64,000 nucleotides of DNA from Mycolicibacterium poriferae (GTDB lineage: Bacteria; Actinomycetota; Actinomycetes; Mycobacteriales; Mycobacteriaceae), in assembly GCF_010728325.1 (NCBI RefSeq), contig NZ_AP022570.1, forward strand, positions 2,914,001 to 2,978,000. Direction: 5' to 3'. Below the pieces are notes generated by a model, which saw only the letters and a program-made list of their open reading frames with translations, was not told the origin of the DNA and did no database searches. Made by a program: the position numbers and the translations under genes. How positions within the stretch are numbered: the stretch's first letter is position 1; the number at the start of each line of letters is the position of its first letter. Shown piece after piece: positions 11,404 to 25,229 of the stretch.

Positions 11404-11517
11404 TCACATGCGAGACAACTTGAGGTAGCGCTTCAATGCCGGATACTCCCGCCAGCCGAGGTATGCCGCCGCAGCGATTCCGGCGGTCAACACGGCAGGC
11501 TTGATAGTCCGCTTCAT
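11404..11517 (-). CDS. 37-aa DUF6893-like small protein
   Basis: A tiny gene reading MKRTIKPAVLTAGIAAAAYL then GWREYPALKRYLKLSRM. It has one hydrophobic segment (about 8-20) after a short basic head, followed by a Trp-Arg-Glu-Tyr-Pro motif and a basic tail, so it is probably a single-span membrane peptide with the tail in the cytosol. Such short proteins (DUF6893 type) are known beside actinobacterial hydrogenase genes. A strong GGAGG lies 5 bases before the ATG. It ends the hydrogenase locus. It could anchor the soluble-looking enzyme to the membrane, but that is inference. Confidence 0.7.
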   Translation of the reverse strand: MKRTIKPAVLTAGIAAAAYLGWREYPALKRYLKLSRM

Positions 11518-11555
11518 GGTTTCCTCCTAGCGGTCGAACGGTGAGAACGTGGAGG

Positions 11556-11762
11556 TCAGCCCGGTGGCAGGTTGGGCATGATCGGCAGAATCGCATCGTG
11601 ATTTTTCGGCCGGATGCCGGTGGACCGGCGCGCGTCGGCCGTCCCGTCCCCGTGGTGTCCAGGCTGCTCATCGAAGCTGCCGGCATTGCCCTGCTTGACG
11701 CGATTCATGTGCGCAGTCGAATCCGGCGCTATGTCCGGCTTCCCGACTCGGATTTCGCCCAT
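11556..11762 (-). CDS. 68-aa hydrophilic hydrogenase-locus protein
   Basis: Starts MGEIRVGKPDIAPDSTAHMN. The ATG at 11762 is preceded by AAAGGAG, which decides against the longer frame beginning with TTG at 11801. The protein is polar, rich in Gly, Pro, His and Asn (FDEQPGHHGDGTADARR), with no predicted fold, membrane segment or metal-binding Cys. The ProAspThr-type VKQGNAG segment looks conserved-like but I do not recognise the family. It sits between the DUF5947-like gene and the 37-aa gene in the same direction, so a role in hydrogenase function is assumed only from context. Confidence 0.6.
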   Translation of the reverse strand: MGEIRVGKPDIAPDSTAHMNRVKQGNAGSFDEQPGHHGDGTADARRSTGIRPKNHDAILPIMPNLPPG

Positions 11763-11797
11763 GTCAACTCCTTTCGTCAGCGTTGTCGCGCTGCGTT

Positions 11798-12412
11798 TCA
11801 AATGCCGAAGTGTCGGTTACCTCTCGGTAGCTCGTCGAAGAAGGCGTCGATGGCCGGCCACACCTCATTGCCGCCGGAAAGACCTCGCCAGTGCGTTCGG
11901 ATGATGGCCACCAGGCGGTAGCAGTCGTCGATCGGCACGATCCAGTGCTGCTCGGCGCCATGGACGGTGTTGATCAAGACCGCCTCCACGGTCGGCGCCA
12001 GACCGTCGAGCTCGGGTCGCTGTCCGACCACATCTCGCCACTGCTGGGGCTCAACCTCATAGTGGGTGGACCCCAACGGGTTGGGATAGTTCGCCACCAC
12101 CACACCGTCGGGTTGTGCGACCAGGTATGCAAGCCCGACCGGCACGCCGAGTCCCTTCGTCGGGAAGGGCGCCATTCGCACGCGTCGATCCGGGATCAGG
12201 CGGTAGTGGTCGCCGCCCGCGGCCGGACGGTCGAACAGAACTGTGCACGGATGGCAGACGCACAGCGGCGCGCCACTTCGTTCGTCGAGCAGGTGACGGT
12301 GCATGTCGGCAACCGGGGCCCCGCACAGTTCGCAATGCAGCAGTTCGGCGCCGTGGCCCGGTGGCGCCCGGCGACCGAGAATCCTTCGTAGCGCCGGTGC
12401 CGACCCCGTCAT
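11798..12412 (-). CDS. DUF5947-like hydrogenase-locus protein
   Basis: A 204-aa protein. The N-terminal part has a zinc-finger-like set, LHCELCGAPV and LCVCHPCTVLF, i.e. CxxC then CxCHxxC, about 23 residues apart; it may bind zinc or an Fe-S cluster. The rest is mixed alpha/beta (VGLAYLVAQPDGVVVANYPN) with no known catalytic motif. Similar DUF5947 proteins accompany group 1h-type hydrogenases in actinobacteria. Its ATG overlaps the NifU-like gene's stop as ATGA, so the two are coupled. Function unknown; assembly factor or electron-transfer partner are both possible. Confidence 0.72.
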   Translation of the reverse strand: MTGSAPALRRILGRRAPPGHGAELLHCELCGAPVADMHRHLLDERSGAPLCVCHPCTVLFDRPAAGGDHYRLIPDRRVRMAPFPTKGLGVPVGLAYLVAQPDGVVVANYPNPLGSTHYEVEPQQWRDVVGQRPELDGLAPTVEAVLINTVHGAEQHWIVPIDDCYRLVAIIRTHWRGLSGGNEVWPAIDAFFDELPRGNRHFGI

Positions 12413-12957
12413 GGCTGCGCTCCGTCGAGCGACGGCCGTGCGGCGACAAGATCGAGGGGGATGAAGGCCGCCTGATTCTTCTGTGCGGCGACTACCATGA
12501 CGTCCGAGAGCTCCGGGGCGATGCCGAGTACCGCCTCTCTCACGGCGTCACCGAGACCCTGGGAACCGCACCCGCTGGCGGACAGCCGGATGGTGGCCAC
12601 CTCTCCGTCGAGGCCGGCGAATTCGACGTGTCCGCCTTGCTCGGCCACCACGGGAGCCAGGTCACCGACTGCACGAGCCACCCGGACCTCGACCGGATCG
12701 GGGTGAATATCGTGGAGCACCAACAGGTGCCGCAGCAGCTCGTCCTCGAGGAAGCGGTCTCGTGCCTCGCCGACCGTGCAGGCCAGTGCGCGCTGGAGCG
12801 CCTCACCGTAGACACCGGCCAGCGTGGACACCGCATCGACGGCGATCTCTCCTGCTGGGCCGGGAACACTTTCGACCTCCGACAGCAACTCGTCGAGTCG
12901 CTGTAGTTGGGCACCGACATCCTCGTCGGACATGCCGGGGCCAGCCATGTCAGCCAT
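12409..12957 (-). CDS. NifU C-domain-like protein lacking the CxxC cluster motif
   Basis: A 182-aa protein whose C-terminal half (VAEQGGHVEFAGLDGEVATI to SQGLGDAVREAVLGIAPEL) matches the NifU C-terminal Fe-S scaffold fold. The usual CxxC at the loop is reduced to a single Cys in SASGCGSQGLG; the only other Cys is in ALACTVG. The N-terminal half is helical (QLQRLDELLSEVES). ATG 12957 overlaps the large-subunit stop by 8 bases, so the proteins are made together. It may chaperone or feed clusters to the hydrogenase, or link it to the respiratory chain; an Fe-S relay protein has been proposed at this position in M. smegmatis, but two cysteines here cannot by themselves hold a 4Fe-4S cluster. Confidence 0.75.
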   Translation of the reverse strand: MADMAGPGMSDEDVGAQLQRLDELLSEVESVPGPAGEIAVDAVSTLAGVYGEALQRALACTVGEARDRFLEDELLRHLLVLHDIHPDPVEVRVARAVGDLAPVVAEQGGHVEFAGLDGEVATIRLSASGCGSQGLGDAVREAVLGIAPELSDVMVVAAQKNQAAFIPLDLVAARPSLDGAQP

Positions 12958-14755
12958 GACCGTTCCATCCCGCCGGCGTGTGCAGCTTCTCGATGGTGCG
13001 GCCGCCGCCGACGTACATGTGCACACCGCAGGGCAGGCACGGATCGAAGCTGCGAACCGCGCGCATCACGTCGACACCGCGAAAGTCGTCGGGTCCGTTC
13101 TCCTCGAAGATCGGCATGTCCTGCACCGCGTCTTCGTAGGGGCCCGGCGTGCCGTAGATGTCGCGCGGGCTGCCGTTCCACGGGGTCGGCGGATAGGGAT
13201 GATAGTTGGCGATCTTGCCGTCTTTGATCACCATGTGATGGCTGAGCACGCCGCGGACCGCCTCGTGGAAGCCGCAACCGATCGCTTCGTCGGGTACCTC
13301 GAAATTGCTGAACACGTGGGTGTCGCCGCCACGCATCCGTTCCATGGCCCGTTCCAGGAAGTACAACGCCATGGCGGCCGAGTAGGCGATGTAGTACACC
13401 CGCGCGCGATTGCGCTCGATCGCATTGGACCACTGGGGAGGTGACCATTCGAGCTCGAGCTCCGGATGCTTGCGACTCTTGGGCAGCGAGATCTTCACGC
13501 TGTGTCCGGTCGACTTCACATAAGGTGTGTCGACCATGCCCGCCAGCGCCGTGGTGTACAGCCGGGCGAACGGTCCGCCGCCCGTGTCGAGGGCGAGGTG
13601 CTCGCCGCTGGCCTTGTCGTACCAGCGGGGGCTCATCACCCAGCTGTACTTGTCGTCGAAGTCGCGCTTGCCCGGGTCGGGCAGTGTGGTCTGGTTCCAC
13701 GGGTGGCGCATGTCGACCGGGTTGCCCAACGGGTCGTGGGTGACGAACGGATCCTCGTTGGCCCAGTCCTGGTAGTACGAACTGCCCAACAGGATTCGCA
13801 TGCCGAGGTTGATGTCGACGAGGTCGGTGGTCACCAGCTTGCCGTCGACGACGATGCCCGGGGTGACATACATCGACCGTCCCCAGTTGGACATGGTCTC
13901 GTAGCGGTAGTCGACGACATCGGGGTTCTGGAAGGCGCCCCAGCAGCCGAGCAGGACCCGCCGCCGGCCCACTTCCTCGTATCCCGGCAAGGCCTCGTAG
14001 AAGAAGTCGAAAACGTCGTTGTTCAGATAGACCGATTCCTTGACGAAGTCGAGGATGTTGATGAGCCGCGACATGTAGTCGGTGAACAGACTGGGTTCGG
14101 GCATGGTCCCGACCCCCCCGGGATACACCGTCGAAGGATGGACGTGGCGTCCCTCCATGAGGCAGAACATCTCCCGGGTAGTGCGACTGACCTGCAACGC
14201 CTCCCGATAGATCTCCCCCTCGAAAGGGTTGAAGGCCCGCATGATGTCGGCGATCGTGCGATAACCGTGCACGCCGGCGCCCGGTGCCTCGGTGTTCTCC
14301 GCGCGCGCCAGCACACTGGGGTTGGTGTCCTTGACCATCGCCTCGCAATAGTCGATGAACACCAGGTTGTCCTGAAAGATGGTGTGGTCGAACAGGTACT
14401 CGGCTGCCTCACCGAGATTGACGATCCATTCGGCCATGGGTGGATTCTTGATGCCGTACGCCATGTTCTGGGCATACACCGAACACGTGGTGTGGTTGTC
14501 GCCGCAGATGCCGCAGATGCGGCTGGTGATGAACCCGGCGTCGCGGGGGTCCTTGCCCTTCATGAACACCGAGTAGCCGCGAAACAGCGACGACGTGCTG
14601 TGGCAGTCCACCACCCGTTGGTTGGCGAAGTCGATCTTGGTGTAGACGCCGAGGTTGCCGATGATGCGGGTGATCGGGTCCCAGTTCATCTCCACGATCT
14701 GGGGCGGCTTCTGGGGTGACCCCGCCTGCTCGCCTCGCCGTTCAGTTGCCGTCAT
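12950..14755 (-). CDS. hhyL: [NiFe]-hydrogenase large subunit, group 1h type
   Basis: A 601-aa catalytic subunit of a high-affinity uptake hydrogenase. The nickel-binding motifs are complete: L1 is RICGICGDNHTTC (Cys81, Cys84) and L2 is DPCLPCGVH (Cys573, Cys576). The 22 residues after His579 (MYVGGGRTIE onward) form the C-terminal extension that a maturation protease removes once nickel is inserted; such a protease is encoded at 23609-24091. It oxidises H2 down to atmospheric levels in related mycobacteria (Hhy/Hyd2). There is no signal peptide. It follows the small subunit by 43 bases and overlaps the NifU-like gene. Expression is usually raised in stationary phase and by low oxygen or carbon; that is family knowledge. 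Confidence 0.95.
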   Translation of the reverse strand: MTATERRGEQAGSPQKPPQIVEMNWDPITRIIGNLGVYTKIDFANQRVVDCHSTSSLFRGYSVFMKGKDPRDAGFITSRICGICGDNHTTCSVYAQNMAYGIKNPPMAEWIVNLGEAAEYLFDHTIFQDNLVFIDYCEAMVKDTNPSVLARAENTEAPGAGVHGYRTIADIMRAFNPFEGEIYREALQVSRTTREMFCLMEGRHVHPSTVYPGGVGTMPEPSLFTDYMSRLINILDFVKESVYLNNDVFDFFYEALPGYEEVGRRRVLLGCWGAFQNPDVVDYRYETMSNWGRSMYVTPGIVVDGKLVTTDLVDINLGMRILLGSSYYQDWANEDPFVTHDPLGNPVDMRHPWNQTTLPDPGKRDFDDKYSWVMSPRWYDKASGEHLALDTGGGPFARLYTTALAGMVDTPYVKSTGHSVKISLPKSRKHPELELEWSPPQWSNAIERNRARVYYIAYSAAMALYFLERAMERMRGGDTHVFSNFEVPDEAIGCGFHEAVRGVLSHHMVIKDGKIANYHPYPPTPWNGSPRDIYGTPGPYEDAVQDMPIFEENGPDDFRGVDVMRAVRSFDPCLPCGVHMYVGGGRTIEKLHTPAGWNGHG

Positions 14756-14798
14756 TCCTGTGCTCCCTTCTGGTCGATTGGTGCTACGACGGCGACCG

Positions 14799-15866
14799 TC
14801 ACGGGCGCCAGCGCGGGTCGTATCCGGTGGTCAGGGCATCCTTGTTGTGCCGCCACTTCGGTTCTTTGTTGACGCTGTGATTGGTGATACCGCGCATGCG
14901 GCGAATGAAGGCGCCGTAGGGCCGCACGATCATCGAGGACAGGCTCCCGCCGGGAGGCTGATCCATGAACGGCATGAACTTGTCCGGAAACCCGGGCATG
15001 GTGCATGCGATGCAGATGCCGCCGACATTGGGGCAACCCCCGATGCCGTTCATCCAACCTCGTTTGGGGACATCACAATTGACGACCGGTCCCCAGCAGC
15101 CGATGTGGACCTGGCACTTGGGGGAGTTGTAGTCGCGGGCGAAGTCGCCCTGTTCGTAGTAACCGGCCCGATCGCACCCCTCGTGAACGGTCTTGCCGAA
15201 AATCCATTGCGGTCGGAGTTGGTCGTCCAGCGGCGGTGGCGGAGCAGACCCCGCAGCGTGGTAGAGCACCCACGTCAACGTTTCCATGAAGTTCTCCGGC
15301 TGCACCGGACAGCCCGGGATGTTGACGATGGGCAGTGCGCCGCGCGATTTGAAGTCCCAGCCCAGGTAGTCAGCCAAGCCCATGCACCCCGTCGGATTGC
15401 CTGCCATTGCGTGGATTCCGCCGTAGGTTGCGCACGTGCCGATCGCCACGACCGCCCATGCGTTCGGGGCCAGGTGATCGAGCCACCAGTTCAGCGTCAG
15501 GGGTTCGCCGGTCTCCTCATCGTTGCCGAACGATGTCCAGTAGCCTTCGCCGTTGATGTTCTCGTTGGGGATGGAACCCTCGATGACGAGGATGAACGGC
15601 TCGAGCTCGCCGCGGGCCGCGGCCCGGAACGGCGCGAGGAACTCCTCACCGCCGAGGGTGGGGGACAGGACCTTGTTGTGTAGGTGCACCCTGGGGAGTC
15701 CCGGGACCAGGCCGGAGATGACGTCTTCGATGGCGGGTTGACTGGAGGCGGTGATCGACACCGTGTCGCCGTCGCAACTCATCCCCTCCGAAATCCACAA
15801 GATGTGCATTTCATCGAAGCCTTCAGAGCCTTGAAAGCCTTGTCGCGTGGGCTGCGTCGCGGTCAC
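14799..15866 (-). CDS. hhyS: [NiFe]-hydrogenase small subunit, group 1h type
   Basis: A 355-aa electron-transfer subunit with three Fe-S clusters. The first proximal-cluster motif, normally CxGC, reads SCDGDTVS, so Cys31 is kept and the second ligand is Asp34. This 1Asp/3Cys proximal cluster is the hallmark of the oxygen-insensitive actinobacterial (group 1h) enzymes. Later ligands are in GTCATYGG and NIPGCPVQP, then the medial/distal set in HEGCDRAGYYEQ, SPKCQVHIGCWGP, NCDVPKRG, IGGCPNVGGICIACTMPG. No Tat signal peptide is present, unlike most group 1 enzymes. The start is GTG 15866 behind AAAGGATG. It diverges from no gene; upstream in the same direction lies the hemerythrin. Confidence 0.95.
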   Translation of the reverse strand: MTATQPTRQGFQGSEGFDEMHILWISEGMSCDGDTVSITASSQPAIEDVISGLVPGLPRVHLHNKVLSPTLGGEEFLAPFRAAARGELEPFILVIEGSIPNENINGEGYWTSFGNDEETGEPLTLNWWLDHLAPNAWAVVAIGTCATYGGIHAMAGNPTGCMGLADYLGWDFKSRGALPIVNIPGCPVQPENFMETLTWVLYHAAGSAPPPPLDDQLRPQWIFGKTVHEGCDRAGYYEQGDFARDYNSPKCQVHIGCWGPVVNCDVPKRGWMNGIGGCPNVGGICIACTMPGFPDKFMPFMDQPPGGSLSSMIVRPYGAFIRRMRGITNHSVNKEPKWRHNKDALTTGYDPRWRP

Positions 15867-15891
15867 TGTTCATCCTTTCGTGGCTGACGTA

Positions 15892-16437
15892 CTACGTCGG
15901 GGGCCTGCCCTGGAGCCGATCGCGCAGGCGGTCGTACAGAGCCGCAACCGGTGCGGCCAGGGCAAGAAGGGGCGGCTCGTCGGGGGCGGCCGGATGCGCG
16001 CGGGTGGGGGCGATCTTCTTGTCTTCGTCGAGGGCTTGGCCGAGGTCGTCGAGCGCCTCCTGGTCGACGGCGTCACGCAGCAGCGGCAGCAGTTCGTCTT
16101 CGTCGGCGCGGATGTGCTCTTCGACTTCACTGCGCAGATCGCTCATCAGCTCGTCGGTGCGGTCTCGGTCGTTTCGGGCGCGGTCGAGCTCCACAAGCGT
16201 GTGCTTGACATCTATGTGCAAATTCAGCCGCTCGTCGACCGCGGCGGACTGATCCGGCATGACCTGTTTGGCCAGCGGGTAGACCATGAGTTCCTCGAGC
16301 GCGGCGTGCTTGGACAATTCCCGGATCATGATGTCGACGACGCCGGTGCGCTGGCTGTCCGAGGCGCTGGCAGCGTAGTCGCGAAACAGTTGTTCGACCA
16401 TCCGGTGGTCGTGGCTCAACAGTTCGATGGCGTCCAT
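15892..16437 (-). CDS. Hemerythrin HHE-domain protein in the hydrogenase locus
   Basis: A 181-aa protein with a four-helix hemerythrin/HHE domain in the first about 140 residues. Likely di-iron ligands are in LLSHDHRMVEQLF, SKHAALEELMVYP, LHIDVKHTLVELDR and EEHIRADEDELLPLL. The C-terminal 40 residues are Pro/Ala rich and unlike the domain. Such proteins bind O2 or NO or buffer iron. ATG 16437 has AAGGAGG in front. Its place 25 bases before the small-subunit gene suggests it protects the enzyme or its assembly from oxygen, or senses oxygen; this is inference. Confidence 0.85.
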   Translation of the reverse strand: MDAIELLSHDHRMVEQLFRDYAASASDSQRTGVVDIMIRELSKHAALEELMVYPLAKQVMPDQSAAVDERLNLHIDVKHTLVELDRARNDRDRTDELMSDLRSEVEEHIRADEDELLPLLRDAVDQEALDDLGQALDEDKKIAPTRAHPAAPDEPPLLALAAPVAALYDRLRDRLQGRPPT

Positions 16438-16438
16438 G

Positions 16439-17767
16439 TCAACCTCCTTGTCCGTTTGGGTGATGCCCGCAGGGGGAGACCTCGTCGGTGTCGAAGTAGT
16501 AGAAGCGGCCGTACCACTGGTGCAGGTCGGCGCCGGGGTCGTCGTCGACGGTGACGGCAATGCGCTGTTCGCCGTCGATGTCGGTGAGGACGGCTTCGAC
16601 GAGTGCGGTGCGTCCCGAGAGGAAGACGTCATGCGCGTCGGCGCCGCGCCGGCGTGGCCGCAATCGCACGCGGCTACCCTTCGCGATCACTGCGCCGTCG
16701 ACGGTGACGGTGTCCGGATCGTCTGCGGGGCGCGCGCGCAACCCGCGCACCGCTCCGTGCAGCCGTTCCATCACTTCCGCGGGCAGGTTGTCGACCCGGT
16801 CGATGATCTCTGCCGCGCGGGGATCGGTGGCGCGTGCTTCCCGCTTCTCCTCCTCGGTCAGTGTTCCGGTGCGTAGCGACAGGATCTCGTCGATCTCCGT
16901 GGCGTCGAACAGATCTCCCGGGCTCTCGGGACTGACCTGCGGGTGGTCGTAGAGCACGATCGGTGCCGACAGCATGACGTCGCGTCTGGCCGGGTCGCCG
17001 GCGAGCACCGGAAAAGTGTGGATGTTGCGGCACGTCTGCGTCGCGGCTGCGGCCCATTCTGGTGGATCGATCGATGACAGGAAGGTGCCGGTCGACAGTC
17101 CGATGAGCGTGTGCGTCGAGACCAGCGATGAGTACAGTGCTTCGGTCCGCGGCGCAGCAGGTCTCGTCGTGTGGTCGTGGTTCTCGGTGCGCACGGTGAG
17201 CCGCCACAGCGTGAACGGGGCCGCGGCGGCGTCCAGCCAGATGGAAACCCGTGCAGAGATCGGCTCGCAGCGGCGCACGATCCGCCCAGCCCTGTCGGGT
17301 AGTTCCTCGATGCACTCGTCGGCCGGCAGCGTGATGTCGGTCTGCACCGGCTCACGGCACAGAGCTGCGAGCGTCGTCGTGACATCGTGCTCGTGGGGCA
17401 GGGCATCGTCGAAGGTGAGATAACGGTGCTCGCCGACCGTCAGTGAATCCACCTCGGCGAACTGTCCGTCGGTGGTGCGCTCTTCGACCCACCGGTGCGC
17501 CACTCGCAGGAAACGCACCCGGACCTGGACCTGCGCCGCCTCGGGCGCCTCCAGAAGGCACTCCGTGTGCTGGTACCAACCGTCGGCCGAACCGCTCAGG
17601 CCGGTGTCGTCGCGCGCTGACGCCGGCAGCCACTGCCGGGGGGCGAGAACACCGAACTGCCACCGCACGCGGTTCTTCGGCGACGAACGGCGATACGGAT
17701 ACAGCAGGTAACCCTCGTAGAGCACCGAGTCGGCGACCGCGGCCGCCTGCAGAAAAGGAGAGCTCAT
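16439..17767 (-). CDS. Unknown 442-aa hydrogenase-locus protein
   Basis: Begins MSSPFLQAAAVADSVLYEGY. I do not recognise a characterised family. It has no signal peptide or membrane span. Several segments look conserved: LLYPYRRSSPKNRVRWQFGV near the start, SLVSTHTLIGLSTGTFLSS in the middle, and a C-terminal SRVRLRPRRRGADAHDVFL with DLHQWYGRFYYFDTDEVSP. Four isolated cysteines do not form a cluster motif. ATG 17767 was preferred to the frame start at 17815 because the protein then begins with the conserved-looking segment; no strong ribosome site supports either. It ends just before the hemerythrin ATG. Context points to a role in hydrogenase biogenesis. Confidence 0.75.
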   Translation of the reverse strand: MSSPFLQAAAVADSVLYEGYLLYPYRRSSPKNRVRWQFGVLAPRQWLPASARDDTGLSGSADGWYQHTECLLEAPEAAQVQVRVRFLRVAHRWVEERTTDGQFAEVDSLTVGEHRYLTFDDALPHEHDVTTTLAALCREPVQTDITLPADECIEELPDRAGRIVRRCEPISARVSIWLDAAAAPFTLWRLTVRTENHDHTTRPAAPRTEALYSSLVSTHTLIGLSTGTFLSSIDPPEWAAAATQTCRNIHTFPVLAGDPARRDVMLSAPIVLYDHPQVSPESPGDLFDATEIDEILSLRTGTLTEEEKREARATDPRAAEIIDRVDNLPAEVMERLHGAVRGLRARPADDPDTVTVDGAVIAKGSRVRLRPRRRGADAHDVFLSGRTALVEAVLTDIDGEQRIAVTVDDDPGADLHQWYGRFYYFDTDEVSPCGHHPNGQGG

Positions 17768-17850
17768 CGCGCGCACCGTCGGTCGTTTCCCTGGCTCGAG
17801 TGCGATAAACATCACAGCCGAAGAAGTTTCTTCGGCGGCCGTTCGGGGGC

Positions 17851-18546
17851 TCAGCGCGAACGCGCGGCGTTGGTCATGTCGAGGGTGCGCCGCGTGGCGT
17901 GTTCGAGGGCCGCGCGGTCGGCATCTGTCAGTTCACCGCAGACCCAGTCCCAGTGTGCGGAGACGAGCTGGCCGGTGCGTGGCGCGGCGGTGAGGGACGC
18001 ACCGCCGCACCTCCAGCGCACGGTCTCGGTGACCGGCTCGCCCAAGCGCAGCCGACCGGACTCGAAAAGCAGCGGGGGACTGGCAAGTTCGATGTGGTCA
18101 CCCCGTACCGCCTGCACCGTGCCCCAACGAACTCGGCACTGCTGTAGCACGTGCAGTGCTGGGCCGGCGCCCCTTTCGAGAAGGCGGCTCCACGGGTACA
18201 CCACGAACACGTGGAAGCTGTGATGGGCCGACGCGGAGTCGACGTCGTGCAACAGGCCCGTCACTTGACCGTGGAACGCAGTCCGAAGTCTGCCCAGCAG
18301 CTCGACGCCGTCGACCCTGTCCTGGATGCTTCCCCCCACCCAGTAGCCGTGGGCGACGGCGTCGTCGAGTGGGTCGTCCACGCCGGCGGAGTCGGCCAGC
18401 GCCGCCAGGTACGGCAGAGCCCCGTCGAACTCGGATGCCGAGGCGGTCAACCGCTCGATGGTGCCATCGGTCAGCTGTACGGTGCCGGCAGGTCCGCAAT
18501 AGCCCAACTCATTGGGGGGGAACGCGTACCGGGCGAATTCCGCCAT
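17851..18546 (-). CDS. DUF6390-like hydrogenase-locus protein
   Basis: A 231-aa soluble protein beginning MAEFARYAFPPNELGYCGPA, a start typical of the DUF6390 family as I remember it from hydrogenase clusters. A conserved-looking central part reads SAHHSFHVFVVYPWSRLLER, and HWDWVCGELT lies near the end. No cofactor motif is evident; there are three or four scattered Cys. The ATG follows directly on the hypE stop (TGAATG), so the two are in one transcript. Function unknown; it is probably an accessory factor specific to this hydrogenase class. Confidence 0.75.
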   Translation of the reverse strand: MAEFARYAFPPNELGYCGPAGTVQLTDGTIERLTASASEFDGALPYLAALADSAGVDDPLDDAVAHGYWVGGSIQDRVDGVELLGRLRTAFHGQVTGLLHDVDSASAHHSFHVFVVYPWSRLLERGAGPALHVLQQCRVRWGTVQAVRGDHIELASPPLLFESGRLRLGEPVTETVRWRCGGASLTAAPRTGQLVSAHWDWVCGELTDADRAALEHATRRTLDMTNAARSR

Positions 18547-19611
18547 TCAGCAGATCCTGGGTAGCTGCTCGCCGATGGGCAGGTCGACCACCCTGGTGCC
18601 GCCCAGCGCGGTACGCGTCACCAGCATGCCGGGATGGTCGGCGACGCAGTGGCCGATGACGGTGGCCTGCGCGCCGAGCGGGTGGTCCCGCATCGCCTCG
18701 AGTATCTGGTCGGCGTCGTCGGCCGGTACCACCGCCAGCAGCTTGCCTTCGTTGGCCACATAGAGCGGGTCCAGGCCCAGCAGCCCACACGCGTCGCGGA
18801 CCGCAGCGGGTATCGGCAGGGCGCGCTCGACGAGTTCGATGCCGACCCCGGCCGTGCGGGCAATTTCGTTGAGGGCGGCAGCCACTCCACCCCGGGTGGG
18901 GTCGCGCAACGCGTGGAGGTCGACCCCGGTGCCGAGCATCGCCGCCACCAGTCCGTGCAGCGGGGCGGTGTCGCTGGTCACGGCGGTGGCGAACTCGAGA
19001 CCATCGCGGCAACTCATCACCGCGATGCCGTGTTCGCCGATGTCGCCGCTGACGATCACCGCGTCGCCGACCGAAGCCCGCTGTGGCCGGATGTCGGTGT
19101 GTCGGTCCAGTACGCCGATGCCCGACGTGTTGAGGTACACACCGTCACCGTGGCCCATATCGACGACTTTGGTGTCACCGGTCACCAGTTTGACCCCCGC
19201 CGCCGACGCGGCGGCCCCCATCGCCTCGGCGATGGGGGCCAACTCGTCGAGACGGAAGCCTTCCTCGAGGATGAACGCCGTGGACATCGCCAGCGGGGCT
19301 GCTCCACTCATCGCCAGGTCGTTGACGGTGCCGTTGACCGCCAGATCGCCGATCGTGCCGCCCGGGAACGTCGTCGGTTTGACGACGAACGAGTCGGTGG
19401 AGAACGCCAGTCGCACCTCTCCGACCGCGAGCACGGCCGAATCCGAGAGCTGGGAGTCGGCAGCCGGGCCGAATGCCGGCAGGAACAGGTGCTCGATCAA
19501 CTCCCCGGTCATCGCGCCGCCACCACCGTGGCCCATGACGATGTTGGGCACGCCGCGCAGCGGCGCCGGACACACCCAGGACTCCATGTCGATGGTCGCC
19601 CTGTCAGGCAT
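18547..19611 (-). CDS. hypE: HypE, carbamoyl dehydratase for the CN ligands
   Basis: A 354-aa AIR-synthase-like enzyme that dehydrates the thiocarbamate on its C-terminal cysteine to thiocyanate, the source of the active-site CN ligands. Family features: [19 protein letters not shown] near the start, ALLVGDTK-type [20 protein letters not shown] in the core, and the essential C-terminal tail ending LPRIC, with Cys354 as the last residue. ATG 19611 overlaps the hypD stop by 8 bases. The longer frame to 19650 is rejected because it runs deeper into hypD. Works with HypF (carbamoyl donor) and passes CN to HypC/HypD. Confidence 0.94.
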
Positions 19612-20704
19612 GGGTGACCTCCAGCCGCCGGTACTGGTAGTACGCCGCACACGCGCCCTCGGACGACACCATGGTGGCGCCCAACGGGTTGCGGGGCGTA
19701 CAGGTGGTCCCGAAGGCCTCGCATTCGTGCGGTTTGAGCAGGCCCTGCAGTACTTCGCCGGAGCGGCACTGCTTCGGCTCGGTGGTGTGGATGTCGGTGA
19801 CGGCGAACCGGTATTCGGCGTCGAATTCGCGGTAGCGAGGCGACAACCGCCAACCGCTGCCAGGGATCGGCCCGATACCCCGCCAATTGCGGTCGGTGAC
19901 CTCGAAGACGTCGGTCAACATCGTCTTGGCGGCCGGGTTTCCCTCGGCACGCACCGCCCGCTGATACGCGTTGTCGAGTTCGTGGCTGCCGGTTTCCAGC
20001 TGCAGCACGGTGCGTCGGATCCCTTCCAGGATGTCGAGCGGTTCGAATCCGGTCACCACGATCGGGACCCGGTATCGCTCGCACAGCGACGGGTACTCCT
20101 CGGTGCCCATCACCGAGCACACGTGCCCAGCCGCCAGGAACGCCTGGACCCGGCACGTCGGCGACTCCATGATCGCCGAGATCGCCGGCGGTACCAGCAC
20201 GTGCGAGGCGAGCAAGGTGAAGTTGGTGATGTTCTGCCGGCGGGCCTGATAGACGGTCATCGCGTTGGCCGGTGCGGTGGTCTCGAAGCCGATGCCGAAG
20301 AACACCACCTGCTTGTCGGGGTTGTCGATCGCGATGGTCAGCGCATCCAGCGGGGAGTACACCACCCGCACGTCGCCGCCCCGGCTCTTGATTCCGAACA
20401 GGTCCTGCCCACTGCCCGGTACCCGCAGCATGTCCCCGAAGGAGCAGAAGATGACGTCGGGACGGGCGGCGATGTCGAGGGCCTTGTCGATGACCTCCAA
20501 TGGGGTGACACAGACCGGGCAACCCGGTCCGTGGATCATCTCGATCTCATCGGGCAGTAGCTGGTCGATGCCGTGGCGGATGATCGAATGGGTCTGGCCG
20601 CCACAGACTTCCATGATCGCCCAGCGCTGCGTCGTGGCGGACTTGATCTGGTCGATGAGCTTCGCCGCCAGGGCAGGGTCACTGAACTCGTCGAGGTACT
20701 TCAC
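19604..20704 (-). CDS. hypD: HypD, Fe-S scaffold for Fe(CN)2CO assembly
   Basis: A 366-aa protein that, with HypC, holds the iron while CN and CO ligands are added. Typical blocks are present: [49 protein letters not shown], and the C-terminal 4Fe-4S cysteines ([20 protein letters not shown], then [25 protein letters not shown]). The start is GTG 20704, overlapping the hypC stop as GTGA. Length is normal for the family. All signature cysteines appear intact. Confidence 0.95.
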
Positions 20705-21021
20705 CGCTGAACCTCCGCATTGTTTTCCGTTCGGTCGGGATTGGCCGTCCCCGCTTGTCTGGCGGCGAGTTCGAACCCGTCGCCGAATTCCTCGTCGAGG
20801 ACGCCGAGGTGCTCGAACTCGCTCAAGGTGCGCTGCGCGGATTCTTCATCGAGGTGCTGGATGGCGAACCCCACATGGACGACGACGTAGTGGCCGACCT
20901 CCGCGTCGGGAAGGTATTGCAGGCAGACGTCTTTCGTGACGCCGCCGAAGTCGACCACGGACATCAGCGTGCCGGCCCGTTCTTCAATACTCAGAATCCG
21001 TCCCGGTACCGCCAGGCACAT
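20701..21021 (-). CDS. hypC: HypC, stand-alone hydrogenase chaperone
   Basis: A 106-aa HypC. It begins [14 protein letters not shown] with the essential Cys2 and has the conserved His in [18 protein letters not shown]. The protein binds iron with HypD and later guides the precursor large subunit. It is longer than the usual 75-90 aa because of a polar C-terminal tail ([19 protein letters not shown]). It is the second HypC domain here; the other is fused to HypF next door. It lies 25 bases after the fusion gene and overlaps hypD. Confidence 0.93.
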
Positions 21022-21046
21022 CGGCAGCTCCTTTCTGTTCGGGGGC

Positions 21047-23605
21047 TCATCCCGCTGTTCCCGCCATCAGTTGGCCGAGCGCGATACCGCCGTCGTTCGG
21101 AGGAACCCGATGGTGGGTGATGACGTTCAAGCCCAGCTCGCGCAGCAGTGCTGTTGCGGTGCGCAAGAGCAGCGCGTTCTGGAAGACTCCGCCCGACAGC
21201 GCCACCGTGTAGGGGGCTTCGGCGGTGAATGCGGCCGCCAAATGTGCGATGAGCCGAGCGACAGCGTGGTGGAAGCGCGCTCCGATCAGCGCGGCCGGTA
21301 CCTCGGAGAGGGCGTCGGCGGCGACTGCGGCGAGCACCGGCGCGGGGTCTATCACCGTCGGTGCCGAGGTGGCGTCGATGCCGAACCGGTACGTCGCGCC
21401 AGAGTCCACCGTGCGGGCCAGACCTTCCAGCTCGATCGCGGCCTGCGCCTCGTAGTCGACGACCTGGCGCACGCCGGCCAGTGCAGCGACAGCGTCGAAC
21501 AGCCGCCCCATGCTCGACGTGGGCGTGCAGTGCAGGCCGGTCTCGAGTTGATGCCGCAGGACGCGGCGTTCGTCAGCTGGACAGCACCGCACCGGCGCCA
21601 GGTCTGGGTGCCACTGCAGTCCCGCCGCCCACAGGTGGGCCAATGCCATACGGTATGGCCGCTCGACGCACGCGTCACCGCCGGGAAGGGGGACATAATT
21701 CAAGGCGGCCAGCCGCCGGTAGCCCTTGTAGTCGGCAAGCAGGACCTCGCCGCCCCAGACCGCGCCGTCGGGGCCGAAGCCGGTTCCGTCGAAGGCAAAC
21801 CCCAGCACCGGTTCGCAGCCGTCGCGGCCGTGCTCGGCCATCACCGCAGCGACATGGGCATGGTGATGCTGCACGGTGCGCACCGGGCGGCCCCCGGCGT
21901 TGCGGTGCGCCCAGGCGGCCGACCGATACCGCGGATGAGCGTCGGCGACCACGACCTCAGGTGAGACCGCGGTCAGTTCGGCCAGGTGGCGGTACGCACG
22001 GTCGAACGCCTGCAGGGTCGCCAGGTCGTCCATGTCGCCGAGGTGTTGGCTCAGCCAGGCGTACCGGCCCTCGGCGACGGCAAGCGTGTTCTTCAGATCG
22101 GCTCCGACTGCGAGTGTCGGTGGTACCGGCACCGGCAGTGCGATGGGTAACGGCGCGTATCCCCGTGACCTACGGATGGGCAGGTCGTGTCCCGCGACGC
22201 TTCGCATCACCGAGTCGTCGCACGGCACCTGAATTTCCCGGTCGTGCGTGATCCAGCCATCTGCCAAACTCGAAAGTCGTTGCAGTGCATCGCTGTCGTC
22301 GTAGCAGATCGGCTCACCGCCCAGGTTGCCCGACGTCATCACGAGCGCTTGCGGTCCCGGCTCGTCGCCGGGCAGTCCCAGCAACAGGGTGTGCAGCGGT
22401 GTGTAGGGCAGCAGGACGCCGAGGTCGGGATTGCGGGGGGCGACCGCCTCGCAGACGTGAGCACTCGCGGTCCGCGGCATCAGCACGATCGGACGCGCGG
22501 CGCTGCCGAGAAGGCGTGCGGAGGCCTCGTCGACCATGGCCACTGTGCCGGCGGCCGTCGTGTCGGGCACCATCACCGCGAACGGCTTGTCACCGCGATG
22601 CTTTCGTCCGCGCAGGGCGCTGACCGCAGCGTCGTCGTCGGCTCGGCAGGCGAGGTGATAGCCCCCGATACCTTTGACCGCCAGGACGCCGCCGTCGCGG
22701 AGCAGTTCGCGGGCCCGACGCAGTGCCTCGTCGTCACCGGTGACGACGCCCTCGACGGTGCGGTACGAAAGCCGCGGGCCGCAATCAGGGCAGCACACCG
22801 GTTGCGCGTGGAAGCGGCGGTCGGCCGGGTCGGTGTACTCGGCGGCGCAGGGCCCACACATCCGAAACCCGGCCATGGTGGTGGTAGGGCGGTCGTAGGG
22901 CAAGGCGGCGATGAGGGTGAATCGGGGCCCACAGTTGGTGCAGTTGATGAACGCGTGCCGGTACCGCCGATCGGAGGGGTCCCGCAGTTCGGCAGCGCAG
23001 TCGTCGCACATCGCGACGTCCGGCGAAACCAGGGTGCGACCGCCGCCGGAGCGCTCGGAGTCGGTGATGCAAAAGCCATTTCCGCCGCGCGGGGAGAGCT
23101 CGTGCCGCTCGACGCTGTCGATGATCGCCAGCGGCGGGGGCGCCGTACTCATCCGGGTCACGAACCCCTCGATGTCGGCGGGGTCGCCTTCCACTTCGAT
23201 CACTGCGCCGCAGCTGTCGTTGCGCACCGAACCGGACAGTCCGTGGTGAGCGGCGGTGGTGTAGACGAAGGGCCGGAACCCGACGCCTTGTACGACGCCC
23301 CGGACGGTGAGTCGATATCGGCGGCGCGGTCTCACGGTGATGTCCCGGGGCCTTGGCCGTCGGCCTGGTCCGCGGCCCCGTCCCATCAGTTTGAGCCCGG
23401 ACAGCGCAGCCTGCGCGCCGGCCTGGTCGGTCTTCTCGACGACGAAGCCCATGTGGATGATGACCCAGTCGCCGGGGGCGAACGTCTCCTCCGGCAGCAT
23501 GCCGACGTTGACCCTGCGCTGTTGACCCTCGACGTCGGCGACGGCGAGCTGGTCGCAGAAGCCGTCGACCATGCCGACGATCCGGCCAGGGATTCCCAGG
23601 CACAT
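21047..23605 (-). CDS. hypF: HypC-HypF fusion protein
   Basis: An 852-aa open frame. Residues 1 to about 78 are a complete HypC domain: MCLGIPGRIVGMVDGF with Cys2, then GDWVIIHMGFVVEKTDQAGA. A basic linker (GRGRGPGRRPRPRD) leads into HypF. HypF comprises acylphosphatase (about 97-180, VRGVVQGVGFRPFVY), two zinc-finger pairs (CDDCAAEL, CTNCGPRF, CGPCAAEY, CCPDCGPR), a YrdC-like domain, and the carbamoyltransferase with QHHHAHVAAVMAEHG and LSGGVFQNALLL. HypF makes carbamoyl-AMP and transfers carbamoyl to HypE. No stop separates the two parts; an internal ATG (in KLMGRG) or GTG could give a separate HypF as well. The whole frame is intact. Confidence 0.92.
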   Translation of the reverse strand: MCLGIPGRIVGMVDGFCDQLAVADVEGQQRRVNVGMLPEETFAPGDWVIIHMGFVVEKTDQAGAQAALSGLKLMGRGRGPGRRPRPRDITVRPRRRYRLTVRGVVQGVGFRPFVYTTAAHHGLSGSVRNDSCGAVIEVEGDPADIEGFVTRMSTAPPPLAIIDSVERHELSPRGGNGFCITDSERSGGGRTLVSPDVAMCDDCAAELRDPSDRRYRHAFINCTNCGPRFTLIAALPYDRPTTTMAGFRMCGPCAAEYTDPADRRFHAQPVCCPDCGPRLSYRTVEGVVTGDDEALRRARELLRDGGVLAVKGIGGYHLACRADDDAAVSALRGRKHRGDKPFAVMVPDTTAAGTVAMVDEASARLLGSAARPIVLMPRTASAHVCEAVAPRNPDLGVLLPYTPLHTLLLGLPGDEPGPQALVMTSGNLGGEPICYDDSDALQRLSSLADGWITHDREIQVPCDDSVMRSVAGHDLPIRRSRGYAPLPIALPVPVPPTLAVGADLKNTLAVAEGRYAWLSQHLGDMDDLATLQAFDRAYRHLAELTAVSPEVVVADAHPRYRSAAWAHRNAGGRPVRTVQHHHAHVAAVMAEHGRDGCEPVLGFAFDGTGFGPDGAVWGGEVLLADYKGYRRLAALNYVPLPGGDACVERPYRMALAHLWAAGLQWHPDLAPVRCCPADERRVLRHQLETGLHCTPTSSMGRLFDAVAALAGVRQVVDYEAQAAIELEGLARTVDSGATYRFGIDATSAPTVIDPAPVLAAVAADALSEVPAALIGARFHHAVARLIAHLAAAFTAEAPYTVALSGGVFQNALLLRTATALLRELGLNVITHHRVPPNDGGIALGQLMAGTAG

Positions 23606-23608
23606 GGC

Positions 23609-24091
23609 TCAGCCCGCCCGTGCCTGCCGGGCCGCCAGCAGCGAGGCCAGCACGTCGTCAACGGCCGACACCGCGCCGGGCACAGCGGCGGCCACCGGCG
23701 GCGACAGACCGATGCCCTCAGTGAGATCGGCCACCTCGCAGCCCACCACGATGGTGTGCGGCGGTGTCCCGCCGAGGGCGCCGAGGCTGGCGAACAGCGA
23801 TGCCGGATCCATGGCGTGGGCGTCGACGCCGGCGGCCGGGCCGAGGCTGTCGTGGTCGGCCTCGAAGACGTGCAGGGTCCCCGGGATTTCGCGCAGCGGC
23901 AGAGCATCGATCAGCACCAGCGCCGCACAGCCGTCGAGAAGGTCGTAGGCCAGGTGCATGCCGCGGATGCCGTAGTCGACAACTCGAACATCATGGGCCG
24001 GCGACTTCACCTGTCTGGCCACTTCGGAGCCGAATCCATCGTCGCCGAGGAAGATGTTGCCGATGCCCGCCACCACGATCGGGTCCGTCAT
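23609..24091 (-). CDS. Hydrogenase maturation protease (HyaD/HybD type)
   Basis: A 160-aa endopeptidase that trims the C-terminal extension of the large subunit after nickel insertion. Nickel-contacting acidic residues are in VVAGIGNIFLGDDGFGSEVA (Asp/Glu) and near VDYGIRGMHLAYDL; the conserved His is in DAHAMDP. The start overlaps the hypB stop (24088-24091) and its end is 3 bases before the HypC-HypF fusion. It is the only such protease in the window and the natural partner of HhyL, whose tail of 22 residues is its predicted substrate. Confidence 0.9.
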   Translation of the reverse strand: MTDPIVVAGIGNIFLGDDGFGSEVARQVKSPAHDVRVVDYGIRGMHLAYDLLDGCAALVLIDALPLREIPGTLHVFEADHDSLGPAAGVDAHAMDPASLFASLGALGGTPPHTIVVGCEVADLTEGIGLSPPVAAAVPGAVSAVDDVLASLLAARQARAG

Positions 24092-24897
24092 GACAGTGCA
24101 GCCTGCGCTACGGCGTCACCGTGTCGAGGGCCGGCGTCGTGGCGCGCCACCCAGTCGTACCAGCTGGCCATTCCCTCACCCGTGGTCGCCGACAGCGTCA
24201 CGATCTGCGCCGAAGGGTTCAGCGCCCGGGTGGCCGCCATGCACGTGTCGACGTCGAAATCGACGTACGGCAACAAGTCCATTTTGTTGATCACCACCAG
24301 GGAGGCGGCAGCGAACATGTGCGGATACTTGAGCGGTTTGTCGGCGCCTTCAGTCACCGACACCACCACCACCTTTGCGGCCTCGCCGAGGTCGAACATG
24401 GCTGGGCAGACGAGATTGCCGACGTTCTCGATGAAAACCACCGAGCCGATTTCGGGCTCGAGTCCGTCGAGTGCCCGGCGCACCATGTCGGCGTCGAGGT
24501 GGCAGCCGGCACCCGTGTTGACCTGTACCGCACGAGCGCCGGCCGCGCGGATTCGCTCAGCGTCCAGCACGGTCTCCTGATCGCCTTCGATGACGCACAC
24601 CGGACGCTGAGCGGACAACTCCCGGACGGAGCGCTCCAGCAGAGTGGTCTTGCCCGCGCCTGGCGAACTGGTGAGGTTCAGGGCCAGGACCCCGCGCCGG
24701 ATCAGCCAGTCCCGATTCCGCTCGGCGATCGCGTCATTCTTGGCCAGCACCTTCTGCTCGAGAGTGACCGTTTCCGTCGGAGGGCCGTGGTCGTGCGCAC
24801 GGTTGTGGGTGTGGTTGTGGTGATGGTGTGGCGGCTCGGCGCCGTCCGGGCTGTATACGACGGGCTCATCGTGTCCACAGCCGCACGTGGTGCACAT
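24088..24897 (-). CDS. hypB: HypB, nickel-delivery GTPase
   Basis: A 269-aa SIMIBI-class GTPase that loads nickel with HypA. It starts MCTTCGCGHDEPVVYS, carrying an N-terminal CxxCGC high-affinity nickel motif, followed by a His-rich stretch (PPHHHHNHTHNRAHDHGPP) that could store nickel. The P-loop is SSPGAGKTTLLE, the metal-binding C/H residues are near NTGAGCHLD, and the base-specificity motif is VINKMDLL. ATG 24897 is only 3 bases from the hypA stop. The longer frame to 25023 is out of keeping with the family and overlaps hypA, so it is rejected. Confidence 0.94.
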   Translation of the reverse strand: MCTTCGCGHDEPVVYSPDGAEPPHHHHNHTHNRAHDHGPPTETVTLEQKVLAKNDAIAERNRDWLIRRGVLALNLTSSPGAGKTTLLERSVRELSAQRPVCVIEGDQETVLDAERIRAAGARAVQVNTGAGCHLDADMVRRALDGLEPEIGSVVFIENVGNLVCPAMFDLGEAAKVVVVSVTEGADKPLKYPHMFAAASLVVINKMDLLPYVDFDVDTCMAATRALNPSAQIVTLSATTGEGMASWYDWVARHDAGPRHGDAVAQAALS

Positions 24898-24899
24898 CT

Positions 24900-25229
24900 T
24901 CAACTCACTTCCATCGAGATGATCGTCAACTCCCGACCCGAGCGCACCTCGACATCGGCGCTTCCGCAACGGCATAACAAGATCGGATCGTCCACGACGA
25001 AGTCCGTCGTACATGTGCGGCAAAACGCCCTGCCGGGGAGCACGGACAGGTCGAGGCGCGCTCCATCAGCGGCCGTACCCTGTGCGGCGAGCTCGAAACA
25101 AAAATCCATCGCATCGGGTTGAACCGCGTACAACGCGCCGATCTCGACCTGAACACTGTGCACACGGCGACCTGACGACGCCTCGCAGACTGCGTCGATC
25201 ACGCTTTGGGTCAGCGCCATCTCGTGCAC
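24900..25229 (-). CDS. hypA: HypA, nickel metallochaperone with unusual zinc knuckle
   Basis: A 109-aa protein that delivers nickel to the large subunit. The N-terminal nickel motif MHE (MHEMALTQSV) is intact. The zinc site usually consists of two CxxC knuckles; here the first is FCRTCTT and the second reads LLCRCGSADV, i.e. CxC with one residue less. The start is GTG 25229 behind AGGAGGG. It is the first gene of the hydrogenase locus and lies after the terminator of the upstream ThDP enzyme gene, so the locus promoter should lie in or near 25230-25275, or transcription reads through. Confidence 0.92.
   Translation of the reverse strand: MHEMALTQSVIDAVCEASSGRRVHSVQVEIGALYAVQPDAMDFCFELAAQGTAADGARLDLSVLPGRAFCRTCTTDFVVDDPILLCRCGSADVEVRSGRELTIISMEVS

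Follow-up and report, generated by a model that had tools for sequence, protein, structure and literature searches.

Bacteria with group 1h NiFe hydrogenases (Hhy) are described as the main sink of the atmospheric hydrogen cycle (PMC6883350). According to PMC7174314 these enzymes are membrane-associated, have no known anchor and show lower affinity off the membrane, and membrane contact was proposed there to set their affinity. PMC13332983 reports that no anchoring membrane subunit had been identified as of July 2026. Here we analyzed a 64,000-nucleotide stretch of Mycolicibacterium poriferae (contig NZ_AP022570.1, positions 2,914,001 to 2,978,000), called the window below, which carries the small and large subunit genes hhyS and hhyL among a set of poorly known genes. 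Three of these, encoding a protein of 442 amino acids (aa), a DUF5947 protein and a micropeptide of the DUF6893 family, are linked to the group 1h hydrogenase in the sampled genomes, of which we are very nearly certain, and the micropeptide is the best candidate for a membrane anchor that was found.

Closest described systems

In mycobacteria, the hhy operon of M. smegmatis (MSMEG_2722-2718, PMC6883350) belongs to the same hydrogenase group and likewise has hhyE immediately after hhyL. Loci of the same genus as the window (L094, L097, L112; L numbers denote loci read, G numbers sampled genomes) differ from it by a long HhyE with more CxxC motifs, the presence of DUF6084 and the lack of the 68-aa gene described below.

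The second system is the actinobacterial hydrogenase (AH) cluster on plasmid pHG1 of Cupriavidus necator H16 (hofKG, PHG066-PHG070). Its HhyL is 71.5% identical to that of the window, and it shares a NifU family protein, DUF5947, a homologue of the 442-aa protein (35% identity) and the protease. The pHG1 order is NifU family, DUF5947, DUF6084, hypothetical protein, protease; thus pHG1 differs in having DUF6084 and in the downstream position of the 442-aa homologue, and a 68-aa gene was not seen there. PMC4377017 describes PHG066-069 as four unknowns of the same cluster kind. As the pHG1 gene order fits PHG066-PHG070, the unknowns of the window are partly these known unknowns (PHG066, 067 and 069), and as judged from their sequences the 442-aa protein and DUF5947 are homologues of PHG069 and PHG067, respectively. 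The first-pass annotation of the window had named the genes as its best candidate for an incompletely described system. The set proved to be real and linked to the hydrogenase, whereas part of it was already known, namely a relative of HhyE (PMC6883350) and PHG066-069 (PMC4377017). Pfam lists DUF6893, DUF5947 and DUF6390, whose curated cut-offs the window proteins pass, without function; new here is the statistical tie of DUF6893 and DUF5947 to the group 1h hydrogenase.

The third system, Huc (group 2a, with HucM and HucE), also oxidizes atmospheric H2 at the membrane. Huc reaches the membrane through a HucM stalk (PMC10017518), unlike the group 1h enzymes with no known anchor. The genome of the window encodes two further NiFe-hydrogenase large subunits, in L108 and L109 (G000:C1 near 2240823-2242097 and 2796688-2798118). 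Near the one in L109 lies a HucE-like NifU protein with an additional Cys/His-containing C-terminal part, which can be aligned with HhyE.

Layout of the hhy locus

The window lies at G000:C1:2914001-2978000 of a 5.9 Mb genome. The whole run occupies 25229 down to 11404 on the minus strand, in the transcription order hypA, hypB, protease, hypF, hypC, hypD, hypE, DUF6390, 442-aa, hemerythrin, hhyS, hhyL, NifU-like, DUF5947, 68-aa, 37-aa. The features are, by position in the window:

11404..11517, minus strand: 37-aa micropeptide with a single helix, from family PF21833 (DUF6893) and a candidate for tethering HhySL to the membrane; AGGAGG just 5' of the ATG
11556..11762, minus strand: 68-aa small protein with no recognised domain, clade-I hhy signature by co-occurrence in genomes and loci
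11798..12412, minus strand: DUF5947 protein, PHG067 homologue (PF19372, E 2.9e-62)
12409..12957, minus strand: reduced HhyE (NifU-like) with N-terminal domain and degenerate NifU domain, no C-terminal CxxC domain (by alignment)
12950..14755, minus strand: HhyL, group 1h NiFe-hydrogenase large subunit (5aa5 match, L1/L2 motifs)
14799..15866, minus strand: HhyS, small subunit with the CxGD motif of the proximal cluster; start codon GTG, preceded by AAAGGA, or possibly ATG at 15809 for a shorter form
15892..16437, minus strand: hemerythrin-domain protein, optional member (PF01814, E 1.5e-11)
16439..17767, minus strand: 442-aa protein, PHG069 homologue, with beta-rich N-terminal domain, helical linker and SH3-like C-terminal barrel
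17851..18546, minus strand: DUF6390 protein of 231 aa, closes the hyp block, not group-1h-specific (PF19927, E 1.6e-82)
18547..25229, minus strand: hypE, hypD, hypC, hypF (with N-terminal HypC domain), HycI-type protease, hypB, hypA

Seven non-Hyp genes had been proposed to share the strand and the tight spacing of hhyS and hhyL. This is confirmed, since the intergenic gaps range from -8 to +43 bp with one exception: DUF6390 and the 442-aa gene are 83 bp apart, and there the tight spacing does not hold. Two blocks result, one of the hyp genes with DUF6390 and one from the 442-aa to the 37-aa gene. Inside the 83-bp gap (17817-17836), where the hyp block meets the structural block, there is a perfect 9-nt inverted repeat, whose stability is not above that of shuffled sequences.

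The window HhyL carries both the L1 motif RICGICGDNH and the L2 motif DPCLPCGVH, which are given for group 1h/5 hydrogenases (PMC5364354). Its closest solved chain is 5aa5 with 1034 bits (runner-up 162 bits), which we take to be the AH of C. necator. HhyS of the window has SCDGD, in which Asp replaces a Cys at the proximal cluster, a pattern found in 64/72 small-subunit rows (SCDGC in 3/72, no such pattern in 5/72). The structural work on 5aa5 reportedly names this replacement (CxGD) as a group 1h trait. On these sequence grounds the window locus is assigned to the group 1h (Hhy) high-affinity hydrogenases.

Three gene families follow the group 1h hydrogenase

The occurrence of the genes was searched in a phylum sample of 149 genomes and a class sample of 197 genomes. 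In the former, 20 genomes have a group-1h HhyL (at least 62% identity; that of G028 in two pieces) and 129 do not, counting as HhyL-negative six with a relative of 39-43% identity; in the latter, 37 have an HhyL of at least 66% identity and 160 do not. Repeated searches of either sample were treated as identical draws because the genome labels agree. A control set comprised 14 genomes and, separately, four control hydrogenase loci with an HhyL match (L109 included). The p-values are not corrected for kinship among genomes.

In the phylum sample the 442-aa family was found in 19/20 group-1h genomes and in 0/129 others (Fisher p 4e-23). The Pfam model of DUF5947 gave the same counts (19/20 vs 0/129, Fisher p 4e-23) and no match in the 14 control genomes. 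The sole miss for both is G042, whose hhyL contig ends 1.5 kb downstream; this can explain the missing 442-aa gene but not the missing DUF5947. In the four control hydrogenase loci no 442-aa, DUF5947 or micropeptide gene was found. The first-pass annotation would have been refuted by a wide distribution of these families away from hydrogenases, which was seen for none of the 442-aa, DUF5947, 68-aa and 37-aa families.

At the level of single loci 81 group-1h loci were compared (clade I 53, I-basal 2, clade II 19, Proteobacteria 4, deep branch 3). The clades were assigned by us from an HhyL tree, the 68-aa gene and the gene order, and 51 named loci had been retrieved by peptide patterns of the window HhyL, which biases them toward clade I. 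HhyE is present in all 81, the 442-aa gene in 79, DUF5947 in 78 and the micropeptide in 72. The 442-aa gene is absent from L098 and L100, whose contigs end 1.0 and 1.5 kb past hhyL. DUF5947 is absent from L038 and L098, where contigs end, and from L100 of G042, where HhyE runs straight into DUF6084 as a fusion (18376-19824), one 483-aa frame running to the contig end. Of the nine loci lacking the micropeptide, four stop at short contig ends (L038, L057, L098, L100) and L115 was resolved by a separate search with a weak match (E 0.05). No micropeptide was found in the deepest branch (L102, L103, L104; L103 has just 2.8 kb downstream) and in L166 of G331.

The families stay together in different gene orders. 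Clade I loci have the order 442-aa, (protease, hypA), (hemerythrin), hhyS, hhyL, short HhyE, DUF5947, 68-aa, micropeptide, and clade II and Proteobacteria have hhyS, hhyL, HhyE, DUF5947, DUF6084, 442-aa homologue, followed by protease and micropeptide in either order. In G382 hhyS, hemerythrin, 68-aa gene and micropeptide are on one contig (L167) and hhyL, 442-aa, HhyE and DUF5947 on another (L168), which is either a split locus or an assembly artefact.

The 442-aa protein had been called unrecognised, and it indeed has no match in Pfam or NCBIfam up to E 1; public data contain at least 7998 related proteins. AlphaFold predicts it with a mean pLDDT (predicted local distance difference test) of 85.8 as a beta-rich part (about 65-270) followed by helices at 292-336 and, at about 350-433, a barrel of the SH3 type; DUF5947 reaches 88.0. 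In L089 and L090 the C-terminal part is encoded as its own gene next to a shorter protein of 328-335 aa; in L078 a stand-alone copy of this part lies further along.

The DUF6893 micropeptide

The GC-rich DNA has 185 reading frames of at least 35 aa over 20 kb, therefore a 37-aa or 68-aa frame alone is uninformative. Both genes are taken as real because they are conserved with fewer non-synonymous than synonymous changes per site (pN<pS), for the micropeptide in 34/36 Micromonospora and 18/21 Actinomadura pairs and for the 68-aa gene in 36/36 Micromonospora pairs. The 37-aa protein, which had been noted as a member of the set, belongs to it and is not without a family, as it matches PF21833 with 29.2 bits (cut-off 24.6).

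Using a model of the family, the micropeptide was detected in 36/37 HhyL genomes of the class sample (E at most 2.3e-4, match reaching model position 34 or 35), the miss being G331. Without the six genomes used for model building the count is 30/31, although the 31 may include species whose named loci are in the model. In 33 of the 36 it shares a contig with hhyL, about 7 kb away or less; the other three have it on another contig, with other hhy genes in G361 and G382 and between protease and hypF in G287. Among the 160 HhyL-negative genomes there is a single comparable match, in G174, between an HhyS fragment and the protease. This locus (L165, G174:C1:2940000-2958000, same genus) contains hypA, hypB, protease, hypF, hypE, hypC, hypD and fragments of HhyS and DUF6390 but no hhyL, and by its gene content it is a decayed hhy locus. 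The DUF6893 model of Pfam was over its cut-off in 30/37 vs 2/160 genomes (G174, plus an internal segment within a 795-aa frame) and in 0/14 controls. In the phylum sample 16/20 group-1h genomes were detected at E at most 1.3e-4 (misses G042, G100, G103, G124); 13 of the 20 had contributed rows to the model, and three of the other seven were detected. Inner matches of longer frames were excluded (G371, 1.7e-4; G112, 7.5e-4; others down to 0.01).

Seven plasmid loci were held out of the model and all seven have the micropeptide, one with a weak match (E 0.05); in six it has the protease on one side and the next hyp gene on the other, and in one it comes after the 68-aa gene. The PLSDB gene tables used, which are incomplete, do not list the frames of pHG1 (L111 14008-14109, preceded by GGAGG) and of the M. 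intracellulare plasmid (L112 11335-11454). On the latter plasmid, nuoA-nuoH genes for a complex-I-type enzyme come after the hhy locus.

The 43 aligned micropeptides are 31-49 aa long (median 36) and 38/43 match DUF6893 at E 0.01. They have a hydrophobic segment with a median mean hydropathy of 2.09 over 17 residues, and the C side is more positive than the N side in 39/43. The tail has the consensus P-x-[LIM]-x-R-[YE]-[LI]-[KR]-[IML]-x-x-M, in which R at -7 and M at 0 occur in 43/43 and Pro at -11 in 37/43, and position -6 is Y in 37 and E in 6; a few members have residues beyond the Met. With 37 aa, a single hydrophobic segment and no His, the window micropeptide is without the features of the b-type cytochrome anchors of other group 1 hydrogenases, which have several membrane helices and haem-binding His.

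All functions given here for the helper proteins are ones that we infer. The micropeptide may tether HhySL to the membrane, with a chance that we put just short of even. It would cross the membrane once, with the N-terminus outside and the basic tail in the cytoplasm, where the tail would bind the cytoplasmic HhySL dimer and keep its electron-exit side at the menaquinone pool. Such an anchor could have been overlooked because the micropeptide is so small.

Instead of the mature enzyme, the micropeptide might bind the maturation machinery (protease, Hyp proteins) as a small assembly or regulatory protein. In clade II it either separates the protease from the 442-aa gene or directly follows the protease, and on pHG1 it lies between protease and hypF; these places would suit such a partner. 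However, in clade I it closes the structural block, and it follows hhyL and not hyp genes generally, as none of the four control hydrogenase loci with hyp genes has it. We regard a maturation partner as unlikely.

HhyE, DUF5947 and a proposed role in the assembly of HhySL

The NifU-like protein of the window is a reduced HhyE of 182 aa that adjoins hhyL and has an N-terminal domain alignable with HhyE. The first-pass annotation had called it NifU-like; the match to PF01106 is weak and stays below the gathering score (17.3 vs 27 bits), and the domain has GCGS with one Cys of the CxxC kept. The C-terminal domain with two CxxC is missing; forms without it are termed truncated HhyE in PMC6883350. 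In clade I 46/51 HhyE rows have no CxxC at all, and four (L067, L072, L074, L082) are cut to 102-116 aa with the NifU stretch gone. A CxxC is present in 9/11 clade-II, 2/2 basal and 3/3 deep-branch rows. There is a single Cys in HhyE of pHG1 (PHG066 as judged by the order), and L086 HhyE contains no Cys. The residues common to 17 aligned rows include L54, D72 and H82 of the N-terminal domain. In Methylocystis bryophila, too, a NifU domain is lacking according to PMC12319191.

As the CxxC is lost in 46/51 clade-I rows, HhyE cannot in general act as an iron-sulfur carrier through its NifU domain, and an assembly role would fit these sequences better. Also in favour of assembly, PMC6883350 reports that loss of hhyE in M. 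smegmatis abolishes Hhy activity staining and that an artificial acceptor gives no compensation, and purified Huc reduces menaquinone analogues without HucE, a relative of HhyE, which the main text of PMC10017518 does not mention. HhyE, DUF5947 and the 442-aa protein, plus DUF6084 in other clades, would then be a dedicated set helping, in air, to build or join HhyS and HhyL with their cofactors loaded, which in other hydrogenase groups would be the work of other chaperones. An assembly role of the three proteins seems to us rather probable.

Another explanation is an electron relay, in which HhyE and/or DUF5947 are redox subunits that pass electrons from HhyS to menaquinone. HhyE is needed for activity and its mycobacterial form has CxxC motifs, and PMC6883350 prefers an electron-carrier role while leaving room for assembly. 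The same study names MSMEG_2717, the PHG067 homologue, as acceptor candidate, and PHG067 is the DUF5947 gene by the pHG1 order. In DUF5947 the residues C27, C30, H38, H40, C51, C53 and C56 are invariant in 47/47 rows and likely form a metal site. Overall we consider the relay improbable.

Several points weigh against the combination of assembly set and tether. On native gels HhyE is found together with HhyL and HhyS (cited in PMC6883350), as would be expected of a subunit too, and the seven invariant Cys/His of DUF5947 would also suit an electron carrier or metal site. DUF5947 may be dispensable in G042, because HhyE is fused to DUF6084 there and a search of the whole genome did not find DUF5947 elsewhere. 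M. fumariolicum is described as having no HhyE-type genes and an enzyme that is still membrane-associated, with other membrane proteins nearby (PMC7174314); thus not every group 1h enzyme can depend on the whole set. C. necator encodes the micropeptide frame although its enzyme is said to be cytoplasmic (PMC4377017, PMC7174314). In addition, locus and genome searches show no micropeptide in the deepest group-1h branch and G331. Taken together, we give the explanation of a clade-I Hhy locus with an assembly set and a micropeptide tether an even chance of being right as a whole.

Optional genes and clade-I lineage

DUF6390 is neither core nor specific for group 1h. In the phylum sample it occurs in 8/20 group-1h genomes and also in 2/129 others, in both of which the large subunit of another type of NiFe hydrogenase and an NAD-binding protein are encoded within about 5 kb; it thus stands beside other NiFe hydrogenases too. 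In G140 it lies apart from any recognised hydrogenase gene. Hemerythrin is optional and not core, with 22/53 clade-I loci and 0/28 other group-1h loci. From the proposed set for assembly, oxygen protection and docking, the link to the hydrogenase therefore stands and assembly and docking appear plausible, whereas the oxygen-protection part is weak. That the small genes are passengers hitch-hiking in an ordinary operon is suggested by hemerythrin and DUF6390, which come and go, but is very improbable given the near-perfect presence and absence of four families across differing gene orders and two phyla and the purifying selection on both small genes.

The 68-aa protein marks clade I: in the class sample the gene is found in exactly the 12/12 genomes with an HhyL of at least 75% identity and in 0/185 others, and it is present in 50/53 clade-I loci, where the clade was assigned partly by that gene. 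In a genus sample of 98 genomes, 57 of them HhyL-positive, this HhyL type was found in two (the window genome and G230, 91% identity), and the remaining 55 have an HhyL 69-72% identical to that of the window. The 51 pattern-found loci comprise 49 actinobacterial (Amycolatopsis, Micromonospora, Actinomadura, Frankia and others) and two alphaproteobacterial loci and no mycobacterium. In the HhyL tree the window and G230 fall within a supported group that has 55 rows and includes these actinobacteria, and the other mycobacteria form a separate supported group. Two rows of this tree (L114_pl, L130_genus) are artefacts of a wrong reading frame and L109 stands far from the others; nothing concluded here depends on these rows. 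The simplest reading of the tree is that the lineage of the window gained the clade-I locus horizontally.

Among the hyp genes, HypF of the window (21047-23605) has a HypC-type domain (PF01455) fused N-terminally ahead of the acylphosphatase domain. SIS-type proteins (cluster c12) lie amid the hyp genes of 41/74 hhy loci, e.g., L037 1765-3298, often paired around a short Cys-bearing protein (c14), and pHG1 has one annotated SIS domain protein.

Meaning for group 1h hydrogenases

The loss of the CxxC bears on the question of whether HhyE is an electron carrier or an assembly helper. A gene of about 31-49 codons that tracks the enzyme over four clades makes the membrane attachment of group 1h hydrogenases addressable by one gene. 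More tentatively, DUF6893 could be the missing anchor subunit, with its basic tail docking HhySL at the quinone pool. If true, group 1h enzymes would have an anchor after all, and the micropeptide would account for their high affinity for atmospheric H2.

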